38,745 bases of DNA from Kiritimatiellia bacterium (GTDB taxonomy: Bacteria > Verrucomicrobiota > Kiritimatiellia > RFP12 > UBA3636). Shown here piece by piece: positions 19,043 to 38,745 of the stretch (positions are counted from its first letter, which is position 1; every line of letters starts with the position of its first letter). Below the pieces are notes generated by a model, which saw only the letters and a program-made list of their open reading frames with translations, did not search any database and had not been told where the DNA came from. A program made the position numbers and the translations under genes. Location of the stretch: contig JAFPBK010000083.1 in NCBI GenBank assembly GCA_017424105.1, positions 1 through 38,745 on the forward strand, written 5' to 3'.

Positions 19043-19497
19043 AGCCTAAATTCGTAGCCGAATTTAGATGAAGCAGCACTGCGGCATATGAAGCATTGCG
19101 AAGCACTATATGCGATGGAATTATTTAAAGTTTCAGCAAGGCGAGGACGCCATGCCGCCCAGTTATTCTGTAAGACGGGGACGTCTTACAGCCCAGTTAA
19201 CGTGTAGGACGGGGACGTCCTACACCCCAGTTAAGCACACACAAAAAAATATTTTACCTAATCTATTCGTTATTCACTATTCACTAATTCTGCGTACTTA
19301 CGCTCCCATACTCAATTATCTTGTGGGCCGCACACGCTAGCGATTGGTAGTTGGCGTTATCTTGGAGCGGCTAGGCGTCGCCCTAGCCTCCAACAACAAG
19401 CGCTGGCGTATCATCCGGAACCACCACGCAAGCCCCCACACAAGCTCAGCGCACCTCAGCGCCCTTTGCGCTCTCTGCGTCCCTTCCCTTCGCACGC
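19043..19497 (+). repeat. Dispersed hairpin-array element, copy A
   Basis: Head: CTAAATTCG/CCGAATTTAG inverted repeat, then ATGAAGCA. Core (19118-19230): hairpin 1 at 19140-19151 (GGCG-AGGA-CGCC, extended outward by GCA/TGC), hairpin 2 at 19169-19190 (TGTAAGACG, loop GGGA, CGTCTTACA) and hairpin 3 at 19202-19225 (GTGTAGGACG, GGGA, CGTCCTACAC), each followed by CCCAG. Tail of type 1, with a GGCTAGG/CCTAGCC hairpin at 19369-19388. The tail continues through CTGCGTCCCTTCCCTTCGCAC, about 60 bases short of the rbsK stop. No gene is seen in the 600-base gap it occupies. Confidence 0.9.
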
Positions 19498-25528: not shown

Positions 25529-25605
25529 GCAAAAAAACACAAATTTCGCTTAATTTTCCTTAAAATGTTGCTTTCCATTTTAAATAAAGCTATTGAAGTT
25601 AGCGT

Positions 25606-25990
25606 GCCTAAGGCATATGAAGCATTGCAAAGCAATATATGTGGTGAGATTAAATAAAGTTTCAGCAAGGCGAGGACGCCATGCTGCCCAGTTATTCTGT
25701 AAGACGGAGACGTCTTACAGCCCAGTTAACGTGTAGGACGGGGACGTCCTACACCCCAGAACTATGCGCTACCTAATACAGGTTAATCCTGAAAAATCAT
25801 CTTGGTGCACAGCCAGGACGACGCCTGGCTGCTCCGAGATAATTGAATCACGAACACCACACATGCACAGCACCTAGCCATCACGCAAACCACCACACGC
25901 ACGCAACATCCGACAAAATCAAAACAAAATTATTGTCATTCCTGTCAAAAAATTCGCACTTTTAGCCATCACGCTTACGTACGCAAGACA
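25606..25990 (+). repeat. Dispersed hairpin-array element, copy B
   Basis: The CTAAATTCG head is missing; the copy starts near GGCATATGAAGCATTGC. Core (25648-25759): hairpin 1 at 25669-25680; hairpin 2, same stem as copy A but with loop GAGA instead of GGGA; hairpin 3 identical to copy A. Tail of type 2: TTAATCCTGA, then a CAGCCAGG/CCTGGCTG hairpin at 25810-25831, CTCCGAGATAATTGAATCA, and CA-rich sequence reaching close to the radC stop at 25998. The 660-base gap between the KdgK-type and radC genes holds only the tRNA, its promoter and this element. Confidence 0.9.
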
Positions 25991-34185: not shown

Positions 34186-34590
34186 AATGAAGCAACGCGA
34201 ACGCTATGAAGCGATATAGCGCAATTTATGCGATGGAATTATTTAAAGTTTCAGCAAGGCGAGGACGCCATGCCGCCCAGTTATTCTGTAAGACGGGACG
34301 TCTTACAGCCCAGTTAACGTGTAGGACGGGGACGTCCTACACCCCAGAAAAACCGCGATAGCCAATACACGTTAATCCTGAGAAATCATCTTGGTGCACA
34401 GCCAGGGCGACGCCTGGCTGCTCCGAGATAATTGAATCATGCACACCACGCGCACACAGCACCTAGCCACCACACTCACGCAGCACCTAGAAATCCTGCC
34501 ATCCTGCGCAATCCCGTAATCCTGCGTCCCTTCCCTTCGCACTTTTAGAAACCACTCTTTGTGCAAGACGAGACGGCAAAATACCCCAGA
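34186..34590 (+). repeat. Dispersed hairpin-array element, copy C
   Basis: Head reduced to AAATGAAGCAACGCGAACGC. Core (34235-34347): hairpin 1 at 34258-34269; hairpin 2 at 34287-34307, stem intact but loop shortened to GGA; hairpin 3 at 34319-34342, as in the other copies. Tail of type 2 as in copy B, with a CAGCCAGG/CCTGGCTG hairpin at 34399-34420 and CTCCGAGATAATTGAATCA, then CTGCGTCCCTTCCCTTCGCAC, which copy A also has. A decayed extra unit lies at 34567-34589. The element fills most of the 615-base gap between secA and rsmE. Confidence 0.9.
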
Positions 34591-38345: not shown

Positions 38346-38745
38346 AGCCTAAATTCGTGTCCGAATTTAGATGAAGCAGCACTGCGTGCTATGAAGCGGT
38401 GCAAGCACCATGAAGCATGCCTTCGGCATATGAAGCATTGCGAAACAATATATGCGGTGGAATTATTTAAAGTTTCAGCAAGGCGAGGACGCCATGCCGC
38501 CCAGTTATTCTGTAAGACGGGGACGTCTTACAACCCAGTTACCGTGTAGGACGGGGACGTCCTACACCCCAGTTAAGCACACACTTTAAATATTTTAACC
38601 TTATCTATTCACTAATTCTGCGTACGCTCCCATACTCAATGATCTTGTGGGCCGTACACGCTAGCGATTGGCAGTTGGCGTTATCTCGGAGCGGCTAGGC
38701 GTCGCCCTAGCCTCCAACAACAAGCGCTGGCGTATCACCCAGAAC
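38346..38745 (+). repeat. Dispersed hairpin-array element, copy D (cut by window end)
   Basis: The most complete head: CTAAATTCG/CCGAATTTAG, ATGAAGCAGCACTGCG and several ATGAAGC repeats. Core (38459-38572): hairpins at 38482-38493, 38511-38532 and 38544-38567, the last two with GGGA loops. Tail of type 1, nearly identical to copy A (GCGTACGCTCCCATACTCAA, CTAGCGATTGG, GGCTAGG/CCTAGCC hairpin at 38693-38712). It runs off the right edge. Confidence 0.9.

Follow-up and report, generated by a model that had tools for sequence, protein, structure and literature searches.

Architecture of the composite repeat

The stretch of DNA analyzed here (the window, 38,745 bases) is a whole contig, C50, of a ruminant-gut Kiritimatiellae MAG (G000; 1.78 Mb in 141 contigs, 78.6% complete), and its right edge is the contig end. 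Four copies of a modular repeat lie in it, at the places given in the initial annotation, and the last one, which begins at ~38346, is cut off by the contig end. Three modules were distinguished: array A, five hairpins with ATGAAGC joints; module B, three hairpins with CCCAG joints; and module C, a tail hairpin bearing the tag TTATCTCGGRGY.

In the last copy, array A occupies 38349..38449 on the plus strand. Its hairpins (38349-38370, 38378-38390, 38398-38409, 38417-38429, and 38437-38449) are split by (G)ATGAAGC, and its left end is sharp (CTAAATTCG...CGAATTTAG). This Gut-1-like array was delimited by sequence, 53 genome matches, covariation, and a match to positions 1-77/77 of RF01706 at 20.2 bits. 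The A-B junction, ATATGCGGTGGAATTATTTAAAG (38450..38472), is A+T-rich and variable among copies. Module B follows at 38473..38572 on the minus strand, with hairpins at 38478-38497, 38511-38532, and 38544-38567 defined by sequence and 46 matches. The tag CTGGG(G) precedes each hairpin on the minus strand, which equals CCCAG after each hairpin on the plus strand, and CCCAG is 51-fold enriched beside hairpins. The linker and tail phrases TTAAGCACACAC..., TATTCACTAATTC, and CGCTAGCGATTGGCAG... (38573..38680) are common to type-1 copies. Module C, at 38681..38712 on the plus strand, is a REP hairpin with the 5' tag TTATCTCGGAGC and the stem GGCTAGG/CCTAGCC.

The other three copies, all on the plus strand, contain a partial array A. 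The copy at 19043..19421 has its B at 19131-19230 and a type-1 tail. Those at 25601..25884 and 34186..34473 have B at 25660-25759 and 34249-34347, with C hairpins on the minus strand at 25819-25840 and 34408-34429, respectively. The tails are of at least two kinds, and hairpin family C is present in both. Three B hairpins, each followed by CCCAG as annotated, were found in every copy, and units 2 and 3 do differ by the compensated change from A-T to G-C (TGTAAGACG..CGTCTTACA vs TGTAGGACG..CGTCCTACA). The ~113-base core of the initial annotation is shared by the copies, but they extend beyond it on both sides, into an array of up to five more hairpins with ATGAAGC joints on the 5' side and a tail with another hairpin family on the 3' side.

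Copy number and placement in the genome

Profile searches of 0.84 Mb of G000, a portion partly picked for holding copies, gave 53 A and 46 B matches. A 278-kb subset, made up of the window and the contigs not picked for copies, contained 16 A, 15 B, and 10 C. The genome contains 216 ATGAAGC-hairpin-ATGAAGC units and 58 C hairpins; in all, about a hundred copies of this patchwork repeat lie between its genes. ORFs are avoided by B, 44 of its 46 copies being intergenic, and convergent spacers are enriched for copies (9/25 vs 23/162, p = 0.018). An enrichment between convergent genes has also been reported for REPs (PMC3733652). The genome search proposed with the initial annotation yielded many copies, far beyond four, and these support a dispersed, intergenic, hairpin-built element. 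The repeat is far beyond chance, and the observation was confirmed and extended.

The modules are separable: we observed A without B, B without A, lone B hairpins, and tandem A-B pairs. Hairpin units have been gained or lost within tandem arrays (L009, C65, and C84). In many copies, unrelated flanks adjoin the sharp left end. Some intergenic spacers are filled by long runs of phrases like GACGATTAGACGGTTAGACG and TATTCACTAATTC (L195 18500-19400 in the congener G002; L042), and such phrase mosaics differ between sister species.

Distribution and synteny in related genomes

Two congeners were compared with G000, namely Kiritimatiellae bacterium RGIG9845 from yak rectum (G002) and RGIG4692 from roe deer (G001). 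SecA of G000 is 99% and 93% identical to those of the two congeners, indicating that they are close relatives. In the genomes searched, A and B were limited to the genus, and A was genus-wide. Module B is expanded in the species of G000 and near-absent in G002, which has one full copy. Module C was species-specific in the genomes searched, one lone match apart. The distributions of A, B, and C indicate successive bursts like those of REP systems.

Between G000 and G002, none of the 14 informative repeat sites kept its synteny, compared with breaks at 18 of 29 long control spacers and 38 of 119 short ones (p = 0.008 vs long controls and 1.5e-5 vs all controls), and MAG misassembly at repeats may account for this excess. 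Many such breakpoints carry no copy in the other species of the pair. With synteny broken at all 14 informative sites, no clean empty site was resolvable between the two species. In one syntenic spacer, the two species carry different repeat phrases. Two further candidates were set aside. A viral origin was rejected, as two patterns had no match in IMG/VR, and a match of one A hairpin in a Legionella MAG was a lone unit outside any array and was taken as chance.

Comparison with REP/BIME systems and the resident RAYT

We compared the repeat with REP/BIME and RAYT (TnpA-REP) systems (PMC2817692, PMC3733652, PMC6006769). As in these, the units are short palindromes (20-40 nt) that carry a constant unpaired tag on one end, and they are high in copy number, extragenic, often clustered, and amplified in species-specific bursts; one unit with an identical tag (C) adjoins a Y1 transposase gene. 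The tags differ: ATCTCGG, CTGGGG, and TGAAGC here, in contrast to GTAG or CGTC in known REPs. Neither GTAG nor GTGG, one of which stands at one foot of GTAG-superfamily REPs, was found; the flanks are CCCAG/CTGGG, ATCTCGG, and TGAAGC. REPs of the CGTC superfamily have an unpaired CGTC at one end and a stem of 8-9 bp (PMC3733652). The present units resemble them in being palindromic and clustered with no dedicated transposase known, whereas CGTC sits inside the B stems here and is not an unpaired end tag. Other differences from REP/BIME systems are that the RAYT gene has a hairpin on a single flank, that the element is a composite of three unlike unit families, and that the RAYT has an extra C-terminal domain. 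The repeat is a dense REP/BIME-like system of Kiritimatiellae whose tags belong to neither of the two described classes, GTAG and CGTC.

G000 has a single intact Y1 gene (C36:3052-4185, L066; minus strand, 377 aa). Its product matched Pfam Y1_Tnp (PF01797) above the cut-off, and its best NCBIfam model was REP_Tyr_transpos (NF047646) at 49.9 bits, below the cut-off of 80. Five Y1 proteins of the genus, when aligned, all had the HxH motif (H96, H98) and Y167, and TnpA-REP (4ER8) was the top PDB match of a Y1 protein from the sister species. Directly downstream of the gene lies a C copy, TTATCTCGGGGTGCGGGGGCGTCGTCCCCCGC (C36:2993-3014). The pattern ATCTCGGRGYN5GGCGTYG covers this hairpin and the C hairpins in one register. 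It occurred 58 times in G000 and never in G001 or G002, and the remaining 159 genomes of the order gave a single match; the reversed pattern, used as a control, gave no match in G000. The similarity of C to the RAYT-side hairpin was significant against genome 37-mers (p ~0.0004) and against shuffles (p = 0.0014). By contrast, the minus-strand B tag, AACTGGGGTG, showed a weak resemblance to the RAYT-side ATCTCGGGGTG (p 0.02 to 0.13). A REPtron has the cognate REP on both sides of its RAYT gene; here one C-type hairpin was found downstream of the gene and none upstream, and tag repeats lie inside the ORF. Among the RAYT genes of the genus examined, none was bordered by A or B. In a comparison of just three congeneric genomes, C and the C36 RAYT were each found in G000 alone. 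The RAYT genes of relatives (G001:C18, G020, G010, and G024) are flanked by hairpin arrays of their own. By these sequence comparisons, C appears to be linked to the resident RAYT, and B is possibly, if weakly, linked to it.

The candidate cognate transposase has an unusual C-terminal domain. This extra domain (STFTSPQER...NEYV...) was seen in several RAYT-like proteins (L066 3052-4185; L139, L140, and L141), joined on through a variable linker, and matched no Pfam or NCBIfam model. The linker DNA of some of these genes contains REP-like hairpins. The RAYT gene of G001:C18 (L142 1970-2710) has GGAGAAGCGACTT.CAGTCGCTTTAAAGCGGCAGGATGCCGCTTCTCC on both sides and resembles a textbook REPtron. G000 also retains a decayed relic of a second RAYT, of the G001:C4 type, with 77 residues (L231 2466-2681).

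Relationship of array A to Gut-1

The initial annotation recognized no described family. This holds only in part, as the architecture is that of REP/BIME elements and array A resembles Gut-1. Rfam searches at the gathering threshold gave no match in the repeat region; with the threshold relaxed one family, Gut-1 (RF01706), was reported, always on array A. The alignments spanned the full model (1-77/77), taking in all three hairpins and the UGAA linkers, and scored 20.2 to 27.3 bits, below the gathering threshold of 50. Gut-1 was put forward as a non-coding RNA from human gut sequences only (PMC2864571), and our literature search found no other paper naming its accession. Array A and Gut-1 are alike in being arrays of short hairpins with UGAA-containing linkers, and the spacing agrees between the two. 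They differ in the linker (TGAAGC in array A vs TGAAAT in Gut-1), in the up to five hairpins of array A, and in the clearly multi-copy state of array A in this genome.

In G342, a genome of the same phylum, seven Gut-1 matches were detected, three of them above threshold and including an adjacent inverted pair (L238 1501-1581; L247 1501-1581; C39, C52, and C96). The stems at these loci vary from locus to locus around the fixed linkers AGTGATATT/AGTGAAATT. Since Gut-1 is itself multi-copy in this genome, it is probably a dispersed repeat too. Judged by the sub-threshold match and the shared architecture, array A and Gut-1 appear to belong together in a single class of hairpin arrays that are dispersed in genomes. 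The exact ATGAAGC linker with other stems was found in 162 units in G406, 31 in G321, and 26 in G324, and usually in 0 to 3 elsewhere.

Such ATGAAGC-linked arrays were observed in distant genomes of the same phylum, in families f36 and f42 (L239, L241-L246). Several adjoin tRNA genes, and some lie inside an outer stem, CTGAAAAGGC ... GCCTTTTCAG. In f36, Y1 genes were present in 7 of 17 array-rich and 2 of 9 array-poor genomes (p = 0.42). A RAYT was rejected as the agent of A: none of the RAYT genes examined in the genus has A beside it, and Y1 genes do not track the arrays in f36. Array A thus seems to be spread by something other than a resident RAYT. We tentatively raise the idea that the arrays linked by ATGAAGC or TGAAAT (array A, f36, f42, and Gut-1) might form a single phylum-wide, self-spreading class in which the linker stays constant while the stems change freely, and which is moved by something else than a resident Y1 transposase; Gut-1 would then be a mobile or dispersed DNA repeat and not a non-coding RNA. 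The findings on Gut-1 suggest a fresh look at this curated RNA family as a possible dispersed DNA repeat.

Nature of the element

The structure of the element, its abundance, its position between genes, its modular make-up, and its taxonomic limits (genus for A and B; species for C, one lone match apart) are shown by the results above. The region is probably a composite non-coding DNA repeat of the REP/BIME type, with C, and less surely B, spread by the resident RAYT. Units made of a tag plus a hairpin (ATCTCGG in C, CTGGGG in B, and TGAAGC in A) would have piled up head to tail between genes. We infer that C units, and less surely B units, were spread as single-stranded hairpins by this HUH/Y1 protein, beside whose gene stands a hairpin sharing the tag, register, and core of C. 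Gain and loss of units inside arrays may occur by replication slippage or by recombination between units, and array A would be part of the wider Gut-1-like class, with its fixed linker and freely varying stems. There is no need to assume a host function for the repeat.

The initial annotation instead read the element as a structured plus-strand RNA with GNRA tetraloops, and an RNA family whose fold is under selection, of this kind or of the Gut-1 type, has to be weighed. The loops do not bear out the GNRA claim: B1 loops were AGGA in 31 copies and GGGA in 10, B2 loops were GGGA in 31 plus odd ones, and B3 loops were AGGA and GGGA in 20 each, so that about half of the B loops are AGGA. The general form, RGGA, is kept on one strand with a single TCCC exception, which favors RNA, as do the full-length but sub-threshold Gut-1 match and the compensatory changes in array A. 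In the covariation check proposed with the annotation, array A had eight pairs with double changes and a covariation of 0.102 vs 0.061 after shuffling, a value reached in 0/500 shuffles. The B stems, however, are near-invariant between copies (9/396 deviating cells in B2 and 1/420 in B3) and hence yield almost no covariation. Selection on a plus-strand RNA would leave G-U more often than A-C in one-sided stem changes, yet 21 G-U and 16 A-C were counted (p = 0.5). By module, these were 20 vs 11 in A and 1 vs 5 in B, the latter leaving out nine inherited A-C cells in B1, where the alternative form is C.A on the plus strand and a wobble on the minus strand only. Copies are oriented both ways relative to flanking genes, although a gene within ~70 nt of the left end is nearly always upstream and co-directional, which is a point for RNA. 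Near-restriction to the genus is a further point against it. Covariation is also expected in palindromic DNA repeats if a single-stranded DNA transposase or template switching maintains the palindrome; DNA hairpin processing would likewise preserve it, and complementary mutations in REPs were remarked on by the RAYT authors (PMC2817692). Covariation alone therefore cannot tell RNA from mobile DNA hairpins, and we regard a selected RNA fold as unlikely.

A passive repeat, in which palindromes are copied and homogenized by recombination, gene conversion, or template switching alone without a transposase, would account for the gain and loss of hairpins in tandem units, the excess of synteny breaks over long control spacers, the syntenic spacer with different phrases, and the A arrays not tracked by Y1 genes. 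It would also fit the loops of hairpin 5 of A, which are flipped to the reverse complement (GAA/TTC). As such flipping was seen mainly in hairpin 5 and was absent from hairpins 3 and 4, general loop flipping was rejected as proof of DNA-level inversion and given minor weight. The sharp left end beside unrelated flanks and the species-specific bursts of B and C, however, resemble insertion, and the tag common to C and the RAYT-side hairpin points to a transposase; a wholly passive origin is improbable on this evidence. A MITE, which a classical DDE transposase would mobilize by its terminal inverted repeats and which would carry target-site duplications, would agree with the sharp left end and with about nine copies that are close to the full 400 nt and 85 to 92% identical. 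We noticed no inverted ends of the whole unit among the copies, however, while the right ends differ in kind and the modules are found separately, and this origin appears very improbable. The composite REP/BIME-type repeat remains the reading we favor.

Apart from the composite repeat, a 43-nt direct repeat was observed at 348-476 of the window, present in three copies whose identity falls from copy to copy.
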